Virus record (IMG/VR): IMGVR_UViG_3300043469_000056
Span: 1 to 24,197 of that record
From: a virus
DNA: 24,197 nucleotides
Reading direction: 5' to 3' (one strand)
Shown: piece by piece, positions 2,414 through 24,197 of the stretch
Position numbering within the stretch: position 1 is the stretch's first letter
Layout of the letters: each line of letters opens with the position of its first letter
Made by a program: the position numbers and the translations under genes
Notes under the pieces: model-generated
What the model saw: only the letters and a program-made list of their open reading frames with translations
The model's database searches: none
What the model was told of the DNA's origin: nothing

Positions 2414-2422
2414 ATTATATCA
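2414..2422 (-). promoter_or_regulatory. Candidate extended -10 promoter element before the 147-residue gene
   Basis: On the minus strand this reads TGATATAAT, a TGn plus a perfect TATAAT. It lies in the short gap directly after the stop codon of the 176-residue gene and 9 bases before the next ATG. No -35 hexamer is evident. The same nine bases occur at 21759-21767. In AT-rich DNA such matches can arise by chance, and here the element overlaps ribosome-binding context, so confidence is low. Confidence 0.3.
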
Positions 2423-2953: not shown

Positions 2954-4104
2954 TACGTTACCCCAACAGAAAATCTAAATTCGATATAATTACTTGTATT
3001 TGGTGATTTAACAATTGTTTCTGCATCTGTATTTTTTACAACCGAATATCCAGTTAATCCATACAAAGGATTTGTTGTTGCAATATTTTCTAGTCTAAGA
3101 GCATCAAGTGCAATATAGTAGTCGTCAGAAGGTACATTTGATACGATAGCACAAGCATAAATTTTAACTACAGTAACAGCATTCCAAGTAAAACCTTGTG
3201 TCTGGTACAACTCTTGTAGTTGTGTAGATGCTACATAATATCTATTAGTAGCAAAATCATATGTTCCGCTAGTACCACTGCCATTATCTAGTTCAATTTC
3301 AAATCTAGCAAACTCATCTGGAGTTTCTGAGTCCGTTGATGCAAAGTCAACTAATATTCTAACTGTCTCTGGAACTGATGCGGAATCTCCGTCTTTGCTA
3401 ATAATAGAAAATGCAAGCCTTAGTTCATCTATCGGAGAGTTTCTACTAAAATTAACATCTGCTCCAGTTAGGTGTATGTGATTAGATCCAGCCTCAATAA
3501 CAAAGTGTCCAGCAGGAGCGCCAGTACTTGCATCAATAGTTAAGTCTGAGTCATCTCCTTGAATTAAAATAATATTATTTAAAAATCTTGCACGTTCATA
3601 TCTTTCTGGACGTGGAGATTTATAAAAAATTGAGTTATCTGCATTTGTTTGAAATACTGGATCTGCTGTTGCAATTACGTTATCATCTAATGGGTCATCA
3701 AGAGGTTCTGTAATTGTGGGAATAGATGTTGCTGCTACTGCTGTATGGTATTGCCAGTTTTCTCCCTGTGTAAATGCAAAAACAGTTTTGCTATCATAGG
3801 CACCAGCAGATGGGTTTGATCCTGCTGAGTAAAGACCAATCTCTGTAATCTCATATCTTTCTTCTGTTGGCAATTCTGCTGTAAGGACTAGTTTTTCTGT
3901 TGCACCGTCATTTACAAATCCTCTAGATGATATGGGAACACGAAACATTTCAAAGTCTAGATTTTGTTTTTCAGAGTAATCTCCGTATGGGTCTGCGGTT
4001 TCAAGTGGTTGCGCCCCACAGCCAACGGCAATGTATGAAGCGTATGCTGGAGCCTGTCCAAGCAAATACTTACCAATTATCGATTTTCCAGTGTCAGTTA
4101 TCAT
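2953..4104 (-). CDS. Tail fibre-like protein with a conserved N-terminal attachment domain
   Basis: A 383-residue protein. The N-terminal 115 residues (start MITDTGKSIIGKYLLGQ; YIAVGCGA near 24; ELPTEERYEITEIGLYSAGS at about 78-97) resemble the attachment domain of phage fibre proteins, in which an 'ITEIGLY' strand is typical. The remaining part, about residues 160-345, is a jelly-roll-like beta sandwich (HFVIEAGSNHIHLTG; DELRLAFSI; YYIALDALRLENI) that resembles carbohydrate-binding modules. It would fix to the tail tip by its N-terminus and bind a host glycan with its C-terminal domain. The ATG directly abuts the previous TAA, with GAGGCGG about ten bases upstream. Specific ligand unknown. 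Confidence 0.75.
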   Translation of the reverse strand: MITDTGKSIIGKYLLGQAPAYASYIAVGCGAQPLETADPYGDYSEKQNLDFEMFRVPISSRGFVNDGATEKLVLTAELPTEERYEITEIGLYSAGSNPSAGAYDSKTVFAFTQGENWQYHTAVAATSIPTITEPLDDPLDDNVIATADPVFQTNADNSIFYKSPRPERYERARFLNNIILIQGDDSDLTIDASTGAPAGHFVIEAGSNHIHLTGADVNFSRNSPIDELRLAFSIISKDGDSASVPETVRILVDFASTDSETPDEFARFEIELDNGSGTSGTYDFATNRYYVASTQLQELYQTQGFTWNAVTVVKIYACAIVSNVPSDDYYIALDALRLENIATTNPLYGLTGYSVVKNTDAETIVKSPNTSNYIEFRFSVGVT

Positions 4105-4608
4105 TTAAATGTCCGCCTCATATATTGTACCACTGATGGTAATTTCTAGTTCTATTTGTTCATCTTCCGCCATATTAACGGCTTCAACAACCAGTTCTCC
4201 AGTCTCTGGATCAATATAAACATGAGATCCATCTGGACCAGTTCCCTCTGTGGGAACTTTTTCATCAAACTTAATAGAAAAGTTTTGAAAGTATTTATCT
4301 GAAGTTGCTTGAAGACTAACTATATTATTAGGATTGTACTGTTGTTGAACTGCTGTTAGATTTTTAATTGGCTGATATAAAATTGTTTGTCCATTAACTG
4401 TATCATTACGAGCAATATTAATTAATTCTTGTCCACCAATATTTTCAAAGATAAGGTCTGACATTATCTCTATTGGAACAGAGTCATCATTAAATAGAAT
4501 TGTATCTATTGGGGCAGTCAATACTGGATTAATGTTGCTGCTTGATACCGCCAAGCCAATTGTTGATGGAGTAAGCGGAGTTGCTGAGATAGAATTACTG
4601 TTTGTCAT
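4105..4608 (-). CDS. Minor tail protein of unknown fold, 167 residues
   Basis: A Ser/Thr/Asn-rich N-terminus (about residues 1-30) precedes a beta-rich segment (EIMSDLIFENIGGQELINIA) and a C-terminal part rich in acidic residues that ends with a strand pair (QIELEITISGTIYEADI). There is no signal peptide, membrane segment or catalytic motif. It follows the large hub gene with a one-base gap, and its ribosome binding site GAGGTG lies in the last codons of that gene, so its translation probably depends on the hub's. Its place between hub and fibre suggests an adaptor linking the fibre to the tail tip, which is inference. I do not recognise the family. Confidence 0.65.
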   Translation of the reverse strand: MTNSNSISATPLTPSTIGLAVSSSNINPVLTAPIDTILFNDDSVPIEIMSDLIFENIGGQELINIARNDTVNGQTILYQPIKNLTAVQQQYNPNNIVSLQATSDKYFQNFSIKFDEKVPTEGTGPDGSHVYIDPETGELVVEAVNMAEDEQIELEITISGTIYEADI

Positions 4609-4609
4609 T

Positions 4610-7600
4610 TTACACCTCGCTCAAATATACTGTCATAGATGGACCAGACAAAGATCTATTGTATCCAATGTTATAAACTACAAACCTGTCTGATGCTTCT
4701 GCAACAAGGTCTAAGTCATCACTATTTTTATAATCAATTGTAACAATGTCTCCTAGTTGTAATGTTGGAATAGAAAATAGGTTAATACCAATTGATTTCT
4801 TAGGACGCATTACTTTGTTAATAATCCAACCCATTAATTCATTTGCATCATCTTGGCTTTGGATATAGGGTGTTTCAATTGAAAAATCATTCTTTCCATA
4901 GATCAATCTACTTAGTTTAATCTCATCATACTTTGCTTTTTCTACAAGAGGAGATGTTATTAGTGTGCTTCCCTGTAGTTCTGGATCTGATAGATTTCCT
5001 TGTTTCTTAAAGTATTCATCTACTGTTAATTGATAAGATGTATCTTGTGTAAATGTAATACCCTGAATTCTTAGATAGTTGCCAGTTGTTTCATCAAGAT
5101 TGAGAGCAGTGTCAGAGGCATTAAAGATTAAGAACTCTGCTCCATATGAGTCTGCTTGGAAGCCAGAAACTGTATAGCCTTTGATTCTGTTAAATGTTGG
5201 AGATAGTTGTGCGTATAGTGCGGGGTAGGAACGATCATACTTAATATCAAAGTAGGCACATTCACGCATAATAGAACCAAACTCTTCAAAATACATGTTA
5301 TATTTTGGTGGTTGTTCTGAATTTATTCCCGTAAGATATGTTCCCTGAACTAAACCACTTATCGCATATTTTCTAAATGATTCATTTGCGTCAATTTCAC
5401 TATCTCCAAATACATCAGAAAGGGTTTCTCCTACTACAGATACTGTATTTTGTGAATAGTTATTTGTTATGGCATATAGGTTTTCAAACATTACTCTGGA
5501 AGATCCTCTAACAAAAGGAGCAATATTGTTATAAACTGGTAGTGGATCTGAATCGTCAACAATCTTAATTAACTTGTTATTAATGTATAAATAGAATCTA
5601 CGCAGAGTTCCAATGTTTTGATACTCTACTGCTAAATCATATACGGTTGGCTTGTCTTCTCCAGAAAGTCTATACTGTCCAGTAAATCTACCGTCGTCAA
5701 CAATGATGCTTGTTAGACCACCCCAAAGTTTAACTGGAATAGCATTATTATTTGATGCATCTTTCTTAACTTTGTAAAAAACAACGTTATTAATGTTTAC
5801 TTCTGCTTGTCCAGTTGGATCAAGTTTTAAGTAAGACTCAACGTTTGTTTCTGTTAGGGCAACAATTTCAAAATAGTATCCGTTGTTTGTTTCTGGATTA
5901 AGCATGATTGCTAAACCACCAGAGCCACCACCTATGCTGACATTTTGATTTGTCTGTGCACTATTTACTTGGTAGTAAGATATGCTACCGATAGGTGTCT
6001 GTCCACGAGTTTCGTTGTTTTCAATCTTTCCAATAATTCTCATTCTTGCACCAAAACTTCTATATGCATTATCAAGTTGTTTGTATTGATATGACACAAA
6101 GTTAATTGGAACCTCTGTAGTTTTAAAAGATGGACCATTCATTACAAGGGCTGAAGACTGAATAGTTCCTGTCTGTGTAGACTTAAGACTATTTACATCT
6201 GTTTCTGTCAAATAACTAGTTGACATAAAATTTTTAATAATACCATTTCTTGTGGTTTGTCTTGCAAGCGTGTTGTTTACTCCAGCGGCCCCTAGTGTTG
6301 TTGCGGGTACAGAAAGATTTTGATCTAAAGTTGTTGTAAACAAGTATTGTGTTTGCATATCACAGCCACGAACGTAGGAGTTGTCTGACCAATATTGATT
6401 AATTCCAGCAGTGTGGGCAACTACTGGTGTACCAAACTGACCTCTGCCATGCTCATATACTGCTCCAGGTTGTAGTCTGTTTATTCCATCAACGGTTTCA
6501 TAGTATGGTGTTGAAAATATCCTTACTAGTCCTGTTGGATATATTTTTCCATTAAAAGGTATTGATGAAAAGTATTTTTGATACTCTTGATTACTGCTAA
6601 TCCAAACATTTCCAGTTCCAGTTATATTAAATTCCGCAGCATCATATCTTATTACTTCTCCACCAGAATAAAAGTATCCTTGATATCTTGTTAACCAATA
6701 GACGTTTTCTCCTATGTCCATAACGTTATTTATAACTATACCGTTTTGAACAACTGGCAAAGATCCTGTTAAGTCAGAATTGAGAGGCATTGCTCCAAGA
6801 ACATACTTGCCCTGCTTAGAGGCAACCTCATTAATAGTTTTAGTATTTTCTGTTCCAGCAACTTCCCATAAGAGCGCAGGCTTATAAATCCAAGTCTTAT
6901 CTCTATCAACCATATTTGCTTGTCTAATACTTCCATATGATCTTTGGATATATCTTGCGGTATAGGATATGTTTCCTCCGTTATATACCTTTTTATCTTC
7001 TGAGGCTATGCTAATTATATTTGGTAAGTTTCCAGATGTAGCATTTTCAACTACCCCCGAATCTGTCTGGTTATTAGTTCCAGATAGCACAAAGTCTGTT
7101 GGTCGCTCATCTGTATCTGGCATTAAATAGTTTTTGCTCATTACAATGAAGTTATTAAATTCATCAAAGAACATTGCACTTTGAGTTGCAACTGCTAGTT
7201 GGTTTAAAACCTCTGCAACATTTTGATCTGGTGCAACAAAAAAATATGGAATTACTGGGTCAGACTCGGTATCTAATCTTCTAAAAGAATAATTGCTAAA
7301 ACCAATATAGTCTAGCAAGGTAACAATAGCCATGCTTAAAGATGTTTCTGTCATTAAAAGTCTTGGTGCTGGCATTGATTCTAAGAAAAAATATAAGTCA
7401 CGTAAAGTAATATCAATGGTTCCAGCAGTTACATTTGCTTGTGGCATACCCTCTGAGTATAATGTCTTGATTGGAACATAGTAATCAAAGCCATCAACAT
7501 CTACTATGACTTCATAAAAGTTAAACTTAATATTTTTTCTAATATAGTCTGCAACAATACTTGTAGTATTATAAGAATTAAAGGCCTGATCGTCATCAAA

Positions 7601-16805: not shown

Positions 16806-17114
16806 TTAATCGTTAGAGTCTGCAGCAAGTGTTGTACCTGATGCTGCTTCTACGATCTTGTAGACAGTTGGTAAATCTAGAAGTTCTTCTAGTTTATCAA
16901 TGTCGTCGGCTAGTTCTGGCTTATACTGCTTCATAGCAATCTGAACACATTCAACAAGAAGTGTCATTGACTTCTCATTATTATCCGCCACCGCCGCAAC
17001 GCCCTCAAACTTTGCCATGAATGGACGAAGTAGAGAGATTTTTAAAGGACGAACAGAAATTTCTGTACCGTCCATAAGTGTGAGTTTTTGAGCCTCATAC
17101 TTTGTTGTTGCCAT
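16806..17114 (-). CDS. Tail assembly chaperone, short form (G-like)
   Basis: A 102-residue protein directly before the tape measure gene. It matches the first 100 residues of the upstream chaperone across its whole length: DGTE near 15-18, then PLKI, LR-FM-FEG, CV-I-MKQY-PE-A, and LDLPT-YK near the end. In most siphoviruses a short protein (G) and a frameshift product (GT) share one N-terminus and coat the tape measure during tail assembly. Here the short form has its own gene. No slippery site with a downstream frame is present, since the tape measure begins 31 bases after the stop. AGGAGG lies six bases before the ATG, and a candidate promoter stands in front. Confidence 0.8.
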   Translation of the reverse strand: MATTKYEAQKLTLMDGTEISVRPLKISLLRPFMAKFEGVAAVADNNEKSMTLLVECVQIAMKQYKPELADDIDKLEELLDLPTVYKIVEAASGTTLAADSND

Positions 17115-17158: not shown

Positions 17159-17863
17159 CTAATTTTTCATAAGGGATGGATCTCTTGCATCTTCATAATC
17201 AAGCCCCATTCCAATACCAAATCCAGCCTTTATAGCATTTTGTCCTTGAAGGGCTAGAACATCATTGCTGTCAGAAGTGGCTCCGCCACTAAATACCCTA
17301 GCCTTCATGTCTTCCCATTCTTTTTGACCTTTATCAGAATTAGTAGCACCATCTAGATCTACCCCCTGAATTGCTGCCAAAAACTTTTTTTCTTCATAAT
17401 CTAATTCTCTTTTACTAGAAAGAGTAACCATTAATTCTGGCATAGATAAAGACTCTTCTAGTTCTTTATAGTCTTTCCAAATTCCTAATATAAATACTTC
17501 TGCCTCTAGTTTTGCTAAATCAAGATCATCCCAGGTAGAACCGCTAGTCTTTGCTTGTTCTTTTACTGGTTCCTCTGATTTTTTATTTATCTTAATACCA
17601 GCAGCAATATCTATAACTTTATATATTGTAGGTAGGTCAAGGTTATCTTCTACTGTATTTGCTATTTCTGGATAGTATTGTTTCATACAAATACCGACAC
17701 ATTTTGACAAAACTTCAATAGCCTCATCATCGTCTGAGGCATCCTTGATGCCTTCAAACTCTACCATAAACTCTCTTAAATATTTAATCTTTAATGGGAT
17801 AATTTCTAATTCTGTTCCATCAATTAAATAAATATTACCTTTACTATATACTTCTGTAGCCAT
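17159..17863 (-). CDS. Tail assembly chaperone, long form (GT-like fusion)
   Basis: This 234-residue protein has an N-terminal domain (1-90) paralogous to the 102-residue chaperone and a C-terminal extension. The extension has a polar linker (about 95-110), a helical part (LAKLEAEVFILGIWKDYKEL), and a segment with SMPELMVTLSSKRELDYEEK, the kind of T domain that follows the frameshift in other phages. The ATG at 17863 is chosen because MATEVY aligns with MATTKY of its paralogue; a TTG at 17890 lies in the terminator tail. There is no Shine-Dalgarno before this ATG. A candidate -10 box seven bases upstream would give a leaderless mRNA. Six A's at 17579-17584, at the domain border, could slip to a short form, but this is weak. 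Confidence 0.8.
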   Translation of the reverse strand: MATEVYSKGNIYLIDGTELEIIPLKIKYLREFMVEFEGIKDASDDDEAIEVLSKCVGICMKQYYPEIANTVEDNLDLPTIYKVIDIAAGIKINKKSEEPVKEQAKTSGSTWDDLDLAKLEAEVFILGIWKDYKELEESLSMPELMVTLSSKRELDYEEKKFLAAIQGVDLDGATNSDKGQKEWEDMKARVFSGGATSDSNDVLALQGQNAIKAGFGIGMGLDYEDARDPSLMKN

Positions 17864-17870
17864 TTTATCT

Positions 17871-17879
17871 ATTCTATCA
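17871..17879 (-). promoter_or_regulatory. Extended -10 element placed for a leaderless transcript
   Basis: The minus strand reads TGATAGAAT, a TGn plus a five-of-six -10 hexamer. Between the hexamer and the ATG at 17863 there are seven bases (AGATAAA), so the expected start of transcription falls on or next to the start codon. The gene lacks a Shine-Dalgarno, which fits leaderless translation, a common mode in Actinobacteria. The element lies immediately downstream of an intrinsic terminator, so a new promoter is needed for full expression. No -35 box is visible because that position is occupied by the terminator. Confidence 0.45.
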
Positions 17880-17880
17880 T

Positions 17881-17914
17881 AAAAAAACAAAGCCCACCCC
17901 CGAAGGGATGGGCC
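17881..17914 (-). terminator. Intrinsic terminator after the major tail protein gene
   Basis: The RNA from the minus strand would fold GCCCATCCC and GGGGTGGGC (17892-17913) into a 9-bp stem with one G-U pair, closed by a UUCG tetraloop and followed by TTTGTTTTTTT. This is a textbook Rho-independent terminator. It lies just past the major tail protein stop codon and before the long chaperone, so it would leave abundant tail-tube mRNA and reduce read-through into chaperone and tape measure genes. Confidence 0.9.
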
Positions 17915-20346: not shown

Positions 20347-21350
20347 TATAAAACTCCAGGTGTGCCAAAGTTCGTAATATACTTTTCTAGGATTTTGTCT
20401 ACTAGGATATTGCCTGTTCCGCTAAGTGCAGACTTGTCAATCTTAATCTTGTATTGGTCTGTAGAATAATCAAGAATATATCTCTTGTGGTATTCCATTT
20501 TGCCACATTTAATGTCATCAATAAGCATTGTTGCGGCATCTTGAATATCATAAGGAACTACCTTGTACCCCGTTTCAAGCGAGAATAGATAGTTAAATGT
20601 TACTGGAAATGTTACTCCTGCGGCTACTGCTAGTGTTACGGGGCTATCTTCTGTATCGTAAAGATAAATTGAATCTGACTCTCCAAGTGGTACACCCTTT
20701 GGTGTTCCAACTGCTCTAACATATGAATCAGTCATTTGCTGATTCCACTCTTTAATAATTGCTGTCTTGTCTTTTGTTAACAGATAACTCCACTCAAACA
20801 ATGCTGCAGGATCTTGTGTTGAATCCCAGACAAGTTCGTTGTTTTCATATGCCTTTAAAATTTTATATACTCTATCCCAGATGCCAAGATAGTCTGTTCC
20901 ATTACCATTTGTTTCATACCATGAACGCTCATAGTAGAAGCCTCCTGGAACTATAGAATCAATGATTGCTCGTGCTAAGTTTTCATATTGTAAGTATTGT
21001 GCAATTTCTGTTGCTGTAGTAAAGCCTAAACTTTGTGCTAGTTTTGTAGGGTTTACATAAGGACGCATAATTTCTAGATTATCCTCAACAACAAGATCTC
21101 CTTCTTCTGGAATTTCAGAGCCAGTTGAATAGACCGCTTCATAAATAGCCAAATAGTAAGACTCGTCATAAGAATTAAACTGGTCTGGAAGAGTGTATTC
21201 TAGTTTTGATCCAGCAGTAGAAACAATAGTTTCTGTAACATCATTTACATTTCTTGTGCTTTGATTAATAACAAGAATGTAGTCAGTATTTGGTAAAGGC
21301 ACATCATAAGAGATGGTTAATGGGTATGGTGGTAAACGTAAAATCTGCAT
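20346..21350 (-). CDS. Head-tail adaptor candidate with an extra N-terminal beta domain
   Basis: A 334-residue protein. Residues 1-80 form a beta domain (LPPYPLTISYDVPLPNTDYI). From about 98 a helical region begins with VNPTKLAQSLGFTTATEIAQ (as seen in connector adaptors: 'vt.eeLa..lg...'), continuing YLQYENLARAIIDSIV. The last 60 residues (MLIDDIKCGKMEYHKRYI; YKIKIDKSALSGTGNILVDK; ITNFGTPGVL) resemble the extended arm by which adaptors pack under the portal. It is longer than gp6/gp15-type adaptors (about 110-150 residues), mainly because of the beta domain and an insertion around 205-260. Start and previous stop overlap as TAATG. Confidence 0.65.
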   Translation of the reverse strand: MQILRLPPYPLTISYDVPLPNTDYILVINQSTRNVNDVTETIVSTAGSKLEYTLPDQFNSYDESYYLAIYEAVYSTGSEIPEEGDLVVEDNLEIMRPYVNPTKLAQSLGFTTATEIAQYLQYENLARAIIDSIVPGGFYYERSWYETNGNGTDYLGIWDRVYKILKAYENNELVWDSTQDPAALFEWSYLLTKDKTAIIKEWNQQMTDSYVRAVGTPKGVPLGESDSIYLYDTEDSPVTLAVAAGVTFPVTFNYLFSLETGYKVVPYDIQDAATMLIDDIKCGKMEYHKRYILDYSTDQYKIKIDKSALSGTGNILVDKILEKYITNFGTPGVL

Positions 21351-21742
21351 TAAATCTTACCGTAATGTCTGGCTACTTCTTTAGGCGATGCTTCACGAAC
21401 TGCCTTATGATTTAGCCACTTAACGGATGCCTCCTTTGTGACAATGTTATATCCTTTTTCAAGGGCACCCACACCGTTCCAATGAAGATTTCGCTCTGAA
21501 TACAAAGCCATCTTGTCTGTTGGAAACTCTAGCGCTTCTTTTTGTTCTTTTGATCCTTCTGCTTTTTTTGTTTCTTTTACTTCTTCTACATCTTTTCTTG
21601 GTACAAAAGGCAAAATAGCCTCTAGCATTTCTTCTTTTGTGCTTGTTCCATATAGATCAATATTGTTCTTTTTTGCATAGGCTTTTAGTTGTGGTACTGT
21701 TTTCTTACTAAATTTTTCTACTACTTCTACTGTTGTTGCCAT
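21350..21742 (-). CDS. Head-module protein with a SAP/HeH-like N-terminal motif
   Basis: A 130-residue protein. Residues 12-47 (KKTVPQLKAYAKKNNIDLYG, then TSTKEEMLEAILPF) match the helix-extension-helix pattern of SAP/HeH/Rho-N motifs, which often bind nucleic acid. A charged Lys/Glu linker follows (about 48-72). The C-terminal 50 residues (MALYSERNLHWNGVGALEKG; KWLNHKAVREASPKEVARHY) form a compact domain that I associate with phage head genes. The ATG at 21742 has GGAGG six bases upstream; a GTG at 21754 lies in that site. It may bind DNA or the portal ring at the vertex; the role is unproven. Confidence 0.7.
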   Translation of the reverse strand: MATTVEVVEKFSKKTVPQLKAYAKKNNIDLYGTSTKEEMLEAILPFVPRKDVEEVKETKKAEGSKEQKEALEFPTDKMALYSERNLHWNGVGALEKGYNIVTKEASVKWLNHKAVREASPKEVARHYGKI

Positions 21743-21758
21743 CTTATCCTCCACTGCT

Positions 21759-21781
21759 ATTATATCAGAGATAACTTATCT
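21759..21781 (-). promoter_or_regulatory. Candidate extended -10 promoter with an inverted repeat
   Basis: On the minus strand TGATATAAT (21759-21767) is a full extended -10 box. One base away lies AGATAA-G-TTATCT (21769-21781), a perfect 6-1-6 inverted repeat over the spacer region, which also holds the TAA stop of the 74-residue gene. A repressor or activator could bind there. No -35 match was found. Together with 17142-17150 and 2414-2422, this suggests that promoters inside the late cluster rely on an extended -10. Confidence 0.4.
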
Positions 21782-22000
21782 TCTACTTGCTCTCAATGTT
21801 TGTGGTCTTCTAATACCGCTTGGTGTTCCAGAAATTGTTATATTATCACCAAATATTGGTGTTGGTATATTTCCTAAAACATTATTTTGTGTAATCATAC
21901 CACTTGGACCCATTATGATTGCTCCGCCTACCCCGCCTACTGCAATAGCGCCATCACCATCATGTTGATGTGAAACTGTTGGGCTTCCTGGATAAGACAT
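21776..22000 (-). CDS. Free-standing paralogue of the major capsid protein N-terminal arm
   Basis: This 74-residue protein aligns over its whole length with residues 8-80 of the capsid protein encoded just before it. YPGSPTVSHQH is identical (residues 3-13 here, 10-20 there), followed by GDGA, a Gly-rich stretch with GGA, then GNI-T--FG and GTP-GI--P. It ends where the HK97 fold starts in the capsid protein, finishing in a basic tail (RRPQTLRASRR). Of the 11 codons in the identical block, 7 differ, so the duplication is old and the protein sequence has been kept. AAGGAG lies four bases before the ATG. A capsid accessory, vertex or assembly-control peptide is the likely role; function unknown. 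Confidence 0.8.
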   Translation of the reverse strand: MSYPGSPTVSHQHDGDGAIAVGGVGGAIIMGPSGMITQNNVLGNIPTPIFGDNITISGTPSGIRRPQTLRASRR

Positions 22001-22020
22001 AATGCTCCTTAATTGATAAA

Positions 22021-22044
22021 GGAGGACAGTTTGACCTGTCCTCC
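22021..22044 (-). terminator. Strong hairpin after the major capsid gene (attenuator or stability hairpin)
   Basis: GGAGGACAG and CTGTCCTCC form a perfect 9-bp stem around a 6-base loop. The following tract (TTTATCAATT) is only weakly T-rich, so this is probably a partial terminator or a 3' mRNA stabiliser rather than a complete stop. It separates the capsid gene from the 74-residue arm paralogue and would lower expression of that gene and those after it. Confidence 0.65.
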
Positions 22045-22052
22045 CTATCGTT

Positions 22053-22068
22053 TAGTTTTTATAAACTA
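22053..22068 (-). repeat. Small AT-rich hairpin at the major capsid stop codon
   Basis: TAGTTT and AAACTA form a perfect 6-bp inverted repeat with a 4-base loop, directly after the TAA stop (22069-22071) and before the GC-rich hairpin at 22021-22044. The layout mirrors that after the major tail protein gene. Confidence 0.5.
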
Positions 22069-23208
22069 TTATGCAGTAGGATCTGATGCTGCGTCTGCAT
22101 AAGCAACCGCATCAAGTTCTTCCCACTGTAGACCAAAGCGGACGAATACTGTGTATTCAATTGTATCCTTCTTTGGCTTGTATTCACGGTTTACAGTGAT
22201 ATCTCTCTGGAATCCCCAAATACGGTTAGCAGGGAATGTCAAGTCGACATAATCTGCTGGGTAGTAAGGGACTTCTTGTACGTCAATTCCAAGAACACGT
22301 GTTGTACGTGCTCCGCCGAATGTCTGTGCCTGTCCATCAAGGTATGCCTGACGGTTGCGCTCTGTACCTGCAGCACGAGGAGCAAATGCTTCTGCGATAG
22401 CATCAGCAAGTGTTCCGTTGTTCTTTACGATACCTTGGAATGCATCTGTACCAGCGTAGAACTTTAGGTTCTGCTTTAGTGCACGATACTTACGTGGCAT
22501 TGCAAGGATAATATCCTGCATTACTTCAGTTGTCCAGTTATCATCAGTAACAGTAACGAGTGCTTCGTGAGCATCGCCATCATTCTCTACCTTGTGTACG
22601 AAACCTTCCATGATTGAAAGGAAGTTTCCAGTTGAACCATCGCCATTAATAGCAAGGTCTTCGATATCGTTAGCAAATGCGTTTGTCATCAAGCGAACTA
22701 GATGATCTTCAAGCGCTCCGCCTTCAATATTATCTTCAAGTGCTTCTGTAGATACTTCCCAGTCAAGACGAATCTTCTTGGTTGTTAACTCTACCTTTGT
22801 AAATGTTGCACCTGCGTTTGTATAATCATTGCTTGCCTGTGCAGCAGCACGGATTACACGCTCACCAACGTTAACTTTTTCAAGTTCCATGGTGTTTGCT
22901 CTCATTGTAACTCTACGACCATCTTTGGCGAGAACTGTTGCATCCCACACGTAGTCGATGAAGCGACGAGCCTGTTCTGGAAGTAGAATACCTCCAGGTG
23001 TACCAGTTGGATTAATTGCGTTAGGACCGTTGGTTACACCAAAGTTCGCTGTTGCAATATTTCCCATTTCTGCTCCGACATTTGAAGTGGTTGGGCTGGT
23101 AGCAGTTGCTCCGCCAATATCACCTGATGCGAAAGCACCATCACCTGCGTGTTGGTGGCTTACGGTTGGAGAGCCTGGATAGTTCTTTACGATTTCTTGT
23201 TCCGACAT
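22069..23208 (-). CDS. Major capsid protein, HK97 fold
   Basis: A 379-residue protein. Residues 1-75 are a Gly/Thr-rich N-terminal arm (YPGSPTVSHQH at 10-20). The HK97-type domain begins at LLPEQARRFIDYVWDATVLA (about 75-94) with the long strand and helix pattern of the family (VELTTKKIRLDWEVSTEALE; HLVRLMTNAFANDIEDLAIN). Later come GDGSTGNFLSIMEGF, then ILAMPRKYRALKQNLKFYAG, and the closing strands (RIWGFQRDITVNREYKPKKD; VFVRFGLQWEELDAVAYADA). It forms the icosahedral shell. The arm may be cleaved by the upstream protease or exchanged between subunits. The ATG at 23208 is preferred: GGAGGTGA lies five bases before it, while the GTG at 23217 is inside that site. Strong ribosome binding plus 3' hairpins suit very high expression. 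Confidence 0.95.
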   Translation of the reverse strand: MSEQEIVKNYPGSPTVSHQHAGDGAFASGDIGGATATSPTTSNVGAEMGNIATANFGVTNGPNAINPTGTPGGILLPEQARRFIDYVWDATVLAKDGRRVTMRANTMELEKVNVGERVIRAAAQASNDYTNAGATFTKVELTTKKIRLDWEVSTEALEDNIEGGALEDHLVRLMTNAFANDIEDLAINGDGSTGNFLSIMEGFVHKVENDGDAHEALVTVTDDNWTTEVMQDIILAMPRKYRALKQNLKFYAGTDAFQGIVKNNGTLADAIAEAFAPRAAGTERNRQAYLDGQAQTFGGARTTRVLGIDVQEVPYYPADYVDLTFPANRIWGFQRDITVNREYKPKKDTIEYTVFVRFGLQWEELDAVAYADAASDPTA

Positions 23209-23234: not shown

Positions 23235-23804
23235 TTATTGGAATAAGTCGGCTGTTTTGAGGAAACGACCGCCCCATAGGGATTTTTGAGTCTTCGTTTC
23301 CGAAAACTCCTGTACAATCTCGCCGAGATCGCCAGACTTGCGGAAAGCGGTGTCTTTTTCGACCATATCTACTCGCTTTCCAAACTCATTAAAAGAACCC
23401 TTAACTTCTTTTACCTCATTTGATACAGACTTAACTTCACCTGTAACGGCATCAAGGGACTTTGTAATTGCTTCAACAGTGGCCTGCATAGACTTTACTG
23501 TTTCTGCTAGATTGCTCAAGGCATTAGTTAGATTTTCATTGATTGAAGAAACTGCTTTAGCAACTTCTTCTGTTGCATTAACAACAGCATCAACTGAATC
23601 ATTTGCTTCTTCAACAACAGGTGCTTCTTCAGCCTCTGGTGCTGCTTCTGCTGCTGGCTCTGTAGCAGGAGTATCCTCTGCAGGAACTTCTACTGGAGCC
23701 TCTTCTACAGCAACTGCTGCAGCCTCTGGAGCAACCTCAACATTTTCAACCAACTCTACTGTTTCAGCACCTAGTGCGTTAACGATTGTTGTTTCTTCTG
23801 TCAT
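23235..23804 (-). CDS. Probable internally started scaffold protein within the protease gene (189 residues)
   Basis: In the same frame as the protease, an ATG at 23804 is preceded by AGAGGAGGAAAATCCT: a consensus AGGAGG (23813-23818) with eight-base spacing. This would yield a protein with only the acidic Ala/Pro/Glu linker, the coiled coil and the C-terminal SLWGGRFLKTADLFQ, and so the classical composition of a phage scaffold. The same arrangement is known in lambda, where Nu3 scaffold starts inside protease gene C. The site is seen directly; its use is inferred. The Glu-Glu-Glu codons that create it (GAG GAG GAA) could be chance in an acidic region. Confidence 0.6.
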   Translation of the reverse strand: MTEETTIVNALGAETVELVENVEVAPEAAAVAVEEAPVEVPAEDTPATEPAAEAAPEAEEAPVVEEANDSVDAVVNATEEVAKAVSSINENLTNALSNLAETVKSMQATVEAITKSLDAVTGEVKSVSNEVKEVKGSFNEFGKRVDMVEKDTAFRKSGDLGEIVQEFSETKTQKSLWGGRFLKTADLFQ

Positions 23805-24197
23805 AGGATTTTCCTCCTCTGTCATCTTAATTGTTCTAATGCCTTTTGCACTATCAACTAAGAACTTTATTTTGTCTGTATTTTCTGAATCTGATTTTTC
23901 AACAAAACCAATATTTTTCATAGGCTTACCAGAAGTAGGACTATCTGCTGAATCATCTTCTGACATTAATACAATATCATTCTCTGAATCCCAGAATACG
24001 TTTTTAACTTCTGTCTTTGAAAGGTATCCACTAACTGTATTCTTACCGTCTACTTTTTCAATAGAGATAACATTAGCAAATTGGTTTGCTGGATTATCAA
24101 CTAGTGATAATTCAAACAATTCATACTCTTTAATTATACGCACTGATTTATCAAGTTTTTCATCAAATGTATCATCTGACTTTGTGATGTTGCCACC
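23235..24197 (-). CDS. Prohead protease C-terminal part fused to a scaffold-like domain (5' end outside window)
   Basis: The frame is open to the right edge, so the true start and the main catalytic part lie outside; 320 residues are visible. The first 50 include IIKEYELFELSLVDNPANQF, the 'ELSLVDNPAN' signature of caudoviral prohead proteases (Peptidase S78/XkdF-like), which cut the scaffold and capsid arm during head maturation. A GTG at 24143 is not taken as the start because the protease signature continues upstream. Then come about 60 polar residues, an Ala/Pro/Glu-rich acidic linker (about 155-200) and a coiled coil (about 205-280, including SINENLTNALSNLAETVKSM). The end is conserved-looking (SGDLGEIVQEF; SLWGGRFLKTADLFQ). 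It sits 27 bases before the capsid gene. The coiled-coil part is probably the scaffold or delta domain. Confidence 0.85.
   Translation of the reverse strand, partial: GGNITKSDDTFDEKLDKSVRIIKEYELFELSLVDNPANQFANVISIEKVDGKNTVSGYLSKTEVKNVFWDSENDIVLMSEDDSADSPTSGKPMKNIGFVEKSDSENTDKIKFLVDSAKGIRTIKMTEEENPMTEETTIVNALGAETVELVENVEVAPEAAAVAVEEAPVEVPAEDTPATEPAAEAAPEAEEAPVVEEANDSVDAVVNATEEVAKAVSSINENLTNALSNLAETVKSMQATVEAITKSLDAVTGEVKSVSNEVKEVKGSFNEFGKRVDMVEKDTAFRKSGDLGEIVQEFSETKTQKSLWGGRFLKTADLFQ

Follow-up and report, generated by a model that had tools for sequence, protein, structure and literature searches.

Locus and gene neighbourhood

The window, a 24.2-kb contig of an uncultured virus, carries a head and tail module on the minus strand. 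The genes and elements considered here are, in order along that strand:

23235..24197, minus strand: head maturation protease/scaffold gene (upstream flank, cut by the contig end; phrog_9427, 3.8e-44)
22069..23208, minus strand: major capsid protein (MCP) gene, 379 aa, HK97-type (phrog_1623 E=6.9e-73, residues 70-372; PF05065)
22969..23208, minus strand: MCP segment for the N-terminal arm (residues 1-80), from which, according to the alignments, the free copy derives
22021..22049, minus strand: terminator-like hairpin between the MCP and arm genes, GGGAGGACAG...CTGTCCTCC (MFE -24.8, z=-6.1; retained whether or not the arm gene is present)
22005..22010, minus strand: Shine-Dalgarno-like AAGGAG of the arm gene (sequence and aligned loci)
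21776..22000, minus strand: free-standing MCP-arm gene, 74 aa plus stop (homology to MCP residues 9-80; homologue family)
21759..21767, minus strand: extended -10-like element TGATATAAT in the gap separating the arm gene from the gene after it; forms the cassette's right border (motif count in loci)
21350..21754, minus strand: next gene, Rho_N/SAP-like domain protein (flank, outside the arm unit; PF07498, 6.8e-06)

The arm gene starts with ATG, with the AAGGAG ahead of it. The product of the Rho_N/SAP-like gene, which is found after the MCP in this phage group, combines the N-terminal domain with a conserved C-terminal region (LHWNGVGxLxxGYNI); Streptomyces gp30/gp50 occupy the same position. 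Beyond it lie more head-tail genes, including one for a major-tail-like protein and, from length and position, a presumed tape measure gene.

Among described MCPs, those of Streptomyces Stanwilliamsviridae come closest (~41-44% identity), followed by those of Rhodococcus Trinavirus. A contig assigned to an Actinomycetota MAG carries one MCP relative, which points weakly to an actinobacterium as the probable host, and from the metagenome sources the habitat may be freshwater.

Head genes next to the MCP gene of phages are usually well understood. Searches of PDB, Pfam and PHROGs with single free-arm sequences and with alignments returned nothing relevant, neither a known decoration protein nor any annotated head gene, in keeping with the description of the gene in an earlier note on this DNA as unlike the standard head genes. 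A literature search on partial MCP duplications yielded nothing matching.

Homology to the MCP arm

BLASTP aligned residues 2-70 of the free arm with MCP residues 9-81 (49% identity, E=1e-17), and profile-profile comparison aligned residues 2-72 with MCP residues 9-80 (probability 99.3%, E=2.6e-20). The two proteins scored 156 in local alignment, whereas none of 2000 shuffles exceeded 64. Once the YPGSPTVSHQH block was taken out, the remainder scored 98 against a shuffle maximum of 69, so that more than a short low-complexity stretch is shared. The end-to-end match to the MCP arm described in the earlier note is thus borne out by BLASTP, profile-profile comparison and shuffles alike (MCP residues 9-80), and a recount in the identical 11-residue block again gave different codons at 7/11 positions.

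The same note placed the end of the copy exactly at the start of the HK97 fold, which needs correction. Homology to the free arm ends at MCP residues 80-81, whereas the phrog_1623 match begins at residue 70 and spans residues 70-372; the free arm therefore reaches ~10 residues into the conserved capsid domain, with GGILLPEQ of the MCP changed to SGIRRPQ. Streptomyces relatives retain GGGLLNAEQADRF at the beginning of this domain, GGGLLNAEQ being their counterpart of GGILLPEQ. Given these ~10 capsid-domain residues, the simplest source for the free copy is the 5' end of an MCP gene.

The MCPs of Streptomyces (Belfort, Enygma) and Rhodococcus (NiceHouse, Trina) phages are without an arm and start a few residues before the capsid-domain point, which makes the ~60-residue arm a lineage-specific extension of the MCP. 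It is rich in Gly, Ala, Ser, Thr and Asn, and each close MCP relative examined has it in some form, which in a few is a shortened one.

Family, origin and selection

Loci were collected from IMG/VR with free-arm and MCP queries, so that the share of arm-positive loci is biased and constitutes no census; the searches returned 59, 71 and more loci, on contigs that are mostly fragments. After removal of duplicates, the collection comprised 91 distinct combinations of MCP and arm, in which the pairing of a capsid gene with an arm-only gene recurs in other phages, and 132 MCPs without the arm gene. Neither INPHARED, with 50,697 phage records, nor the GTDB genomes yielded a homologue of the free arm. 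Arm-like places were counted with an arm profile on 24 contigs of up to 114 kb: each of the 11 arm-positive contigs (56-112 kb) had exactly two, the MCP and the free arm, and on the 13 arm-negative contigs the MCP was the sole one.

In a tree built from the arms only, 58 free arms lay on one side of a branch and 90 MCP arms on the other (support 98); the 75 columns gave poor resolution inside the groups, and the tool issued a long-branch warning. That all free arms group apart from the MCP arms indicates that the 5' end of the MCP gene was duplicated a single time. Recent gene conversion between arm and MCP was considered as the cause of their likeness and rejected, since the codons of the identical block differ as counted above and the free arms form their own clade.

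The dN/dS of the free arm was 0.20 for disjoint pairs and 0.43 for all pairs, compared with 0.22 and 0.29 for the MCP arm and 0.11 for the MCP body. The free arm is under purifying selection near that of the MCP arm, and the claim that its protein sequence has been maintained by selection holds: at about 0.2-0.4 the ratio is not near 1, and the ORFs are intact across the family with one exception, a copy without N-terminus in L073. In that locus (667-1856), an MCP without C-terminus runs into the arm ORF, either through a deletion or through an assembly joint. In L111 (IMGVR_UViG_3300012286_000260, 3497-5699), a near-complete tandem copy of the MCP gene, coding for an identical protein, lies between the MCP and arm genes and is either an assembly error or a recent duplication.

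An optional cassette

The arm gene directly follows the MCP gene in nearly all arm-positive loci, with a gap of 66-81 nt in all but one. Its presence differs between MCPs that are 99.7% (L087 vs L061), 98.7% (L063 vs L065), 97.9% (L116 vs L109) and 91.3% (L068/L072 vs L016) identical. In the aligned DNA the cassette has identical borders each time: its left border is the post-MCP hairpin and its right border TCTG[AG]TATAAT, and between the two the Shine-Dalgarno sequence and the arm ORF are either cleanly there or missing. A stable structure is found 3' of the MCP gene whether the arm gene is present or not, and TG[AG]TATAAT occurs in 88/89 arm-positive and 107/132 arm-negative loci. This element is possibly a phage promoter element; on the coding strand of the window it is found twice only, at 21759-21767 (-) and at about 2414-2422 (-), both adjoining gene starts or ends. 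An assembly artefact is an unlikely cause of the absences, as independent contigs from different metagenomes have the same borders without the arm.

The presence of the arm gene changes 12-13 times on the tree of the MCP body and 11 times on both the MCP tree and the downstream-gene tree (shared rows); gains or losses of the gene, each time as the exact cassette, number at least 11-13. The idea that it travels with the downstream gene rather than with the MCP made no difference, both trees requiring the same 11 changes. Because near-identical MCPs (up to 99.7%) occur without the gene, it is not essential for assembly, which leaves the assembly-controlling role proposed in the earlier note unsupported in any essential form. 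That note had named homologues absent from or broken in close relatives as evidence against its reading; absence is partly what we find, and breakage is not. Since the arm gene lies between the terminator-like hairpin and the next promoter-like element, it would be expressed by read-through, below the level of the MCP.

Sequence features and motif agreement

Every full-length free arm checked has a basic C-terminal tail with zero acidic residues. The median net charge is +2 for free arms and -4 for MCP arms. The protease/scaffold protein encoded upstream is strongly acidic, its portion inside the window having 61 acidic against 29 basic residues. AlphaFold models of the MCP (86-row alignment, pLDDT 37) and the free arm (59-row alignment, pLDDT 49) are of low confidence; they have no helix in the arm and at most a predicted hairpin. 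The HK97 core is absent from the free arm.

The status of an HxH motif was the same in the free arm and its own MCP in 90/90 intact pairs (81 with, 9 without), L073 having been left out because its free arm is without N-terminus. MCP arms without HxH mostly have LNGxG-like residues instead. On the tree this agreement rests on 1-2 switches only and is therefore suggestive, without amounting to statistical proof of contact. The similarity of free arms was 0.51 to their own MCP arms and 0.48 to other MCP arms; the partial correlation of the free arm was 0.49 with the MCP arm and 0.48 with the MCP body, and as the former is not larger than the latter, co-inheritance alone could give this correlation. 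Over independent pairs, the presence of the arm gene and HxH in the MCP were associated in the same direction, not significantly. In L068 and L072 (MCP at 5001-6134), which lie inside an arm-positive HxH clade, the MCP arm has switched to LNGxG and the arm gene is also missing. HxH motifs of phage fibres, which are fibre domains, are associated with iron; that the HxH of the arms might bind metal is speculation. Both the optional nature of the gene and the motif match with its own MCP had been overlooked in the earlier note.

Comparison with known capsid proteins

In JBD30, the hooks of the N-terminal arms meet each other between capsomers, and the minor capsid protein gp39, present on about half of the virions, was judged likely dispensable (PMC11445458); in D3, N-arm and E-loop form much of the inter-capsomer network (PMC12749128). 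The free arm resembles T4 Soc, lambda gpD and JBD30 gp39, which are small, dispensable in some cases, and bind the shell where neighbouring capsomers meet (PMC11445458). JBD30 gp39 is moreover numbered directly after the MCP, gp38, as the free arm gene likewise follows its MCP gene. With a position in the head module beside the MCP, and with related phages that dispense with it, the free arm may possibly have a decoration role. The known decoration proteins, however, are domains with a defined fold (beta-tadpole or similar) and share no sequence relationship with the MCP, whereas the free arm, a putative head component, copies the arm of its own MCP and has no recognisable fold.

T4 gp24 is an MCP paralogue that mixes into the shell and has kept the HK97 fold. 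The Ccm protein of SaPIbov5 (PMC6893505) came from a duplicated capsid gene, as the free arm did, and like it may become part of one shell with the MCP. With its HK97 fold retained, Ccm can take the place of an MCP subunit (PMC6893505), whereas the free arm, though homologous to the MCP, is an arm only and lacks the HK97 core; Ccm also belongs to a satellite, the free arm gene to the phage itself. SaPI1 CpmB, SaPIpT1028 Rcm and P4 Sid are small proteins acting on capsid assembly, and CpmB has motifs in common with the scaffold it competes with (PMC12409344). These are satellite weapons that bind the MCP or mimic the scaffold (PMC12409344); here, in contrast, a phage copies its own MCP arm, and near-identical MCPs are found without the copy. 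The delta domain of HK97 and D3 is likewise an N-terminal extension of the MCP, of about 100 residues, which serves as scaffold and is cleaved (PMC12749128); in the present phages, unlike there, the coiled-coil scaffold-like part is in the protease gene, and the arm has at most a predicted hairpin in the low-confidence models.

Interpretation

The reading we favour, tentatively, makes the free arm an accessory peptide of the head that the phage can dispense with and that joins the MCP arms. According to alignments and tree, the 5' end of the MCP gene was duplicated once, which yielded a copy of the ~60-residue extension with the first ~10 capsid-domain residues; purifying selection keeps this copy as an optional cassette just behind the MCP hairpin. 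Read-through of MCP transcripts would supply the free arm in smaller amounts than the MCP; through arm-to-arm contacts it may then associate with MCP arms where these cluster on or in the shell, with the HxH or LNGxG motif as the shared contact of both partners and with the basic tail bound to DNA or to an acidic surface, the MCP arms being net negative. It could add stability or a surface property useful under some conditions only, like other optional decoration proteins. Without an HK97 core the free arm is itself no lattice subunit, and this, together with the near-identical MCPs that do without it, argues for an accessory part. Homology, position, one origin, selection, the complete HxH agreement, the clean cassette, the basic tail and the JBD30 precedent are in favour of this tentative reading; against it, the low-confidence models name no contact site, and the motif agreement amounts to 1-2 switches. 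The partial correlations, the non-significant link with HxH and the small margin of similarity to the own MCP arm also count against it. The broader proposition of a detached MCP arm as an optional module, absent from characterised phages and acting either through arm-to-arm contacts (possibly HxH metal sites) or as a capsid decoy, appears rather doubtful to us.

The main rival to an accessory head peptide, though an unlikely one, is a decoy or immunity protein that mimics the exposed MCP arm against a host sensor, a satellite capsid hijacker or the assembly of a superinfecting phage. The patchy distribution fits it equally well: the gene is accessory, optional and often exchanged (11-13 changes), the motif type matches the own MCP as mimicry would demand, and the protein lacks an HK97 core and is not needed by near-identical MCPs. 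Yet no defence or satellite protein against such an arm is known in these hosts, divergence is moderate and not fast, and a decoy leaves the basic tail without a role. We assign a slightly lower probability to a regulator of assembly or size that competes with the MCP arms in the prohead or sits at lattice or portal-vertex sites, limiting or guiding growth. The free arm consists of the arm and the first N-arm residues, a segment that makes inter-capsomer contacts in HK97-like phages (D3: PMC12749128), and competing mimics are known from satellites (CpmB, Rcm), but MCPs 97.9-99.7% identical do without the gene, and contigs of >100 kb, themselves fragments, occur both with (112 kb) and without it (114 kb and 106 kb). 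With the gene both present and absent beside almost the same MCP, size control seems less likely, and the shell-size or vertex role suggested in the earlier note loses ground accordingly.

Lower again we place an internal or ejected protein, for which the arm would be a packaging tag and the basic tail would lie on DNA or on the acidic scaffold region of the protease. The tail without acidic residues and the strongly acidic upstream product suit such a protein, but nothing beyond the arm is left to serve as cargo, and MCP arms are not known as targeting tags. A non-functional remnant of a tandem duplication is very improbable: the gene is optional and adjoins its source, but it has an intact ORF, a Shine-Dalgarno site and a dN/dS of 0.2-0.4 over much divergence, and its one origin has left many descendants.

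A large group of uncultured phages thus repeatedly gains and loses a gene made of the arm of a capsid protein only, and the natural pairs of nearly identical MCPs with and without it make its role directly testable. Were the free arm a component of the shell, an MCP arm would work detached from its capsid domain, which bears on capsid engineering and on the origins of decoration proteins; were it a decoy, it would represent a new kind of phage counter-defence.

A second N-terminal paralogue

The window encodes another N-terminal-only paralogue, in a gene pair at 16806-17114 and 17159-17890 (-). A protein of 102 aa, whose gene precedes the presumed tape measure gene, resembles the N-terminal ~100 residues of the upstream 243-aa protein (44% identity, E=6e-28). 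Their position suggests that both are tail assembly chaperones.
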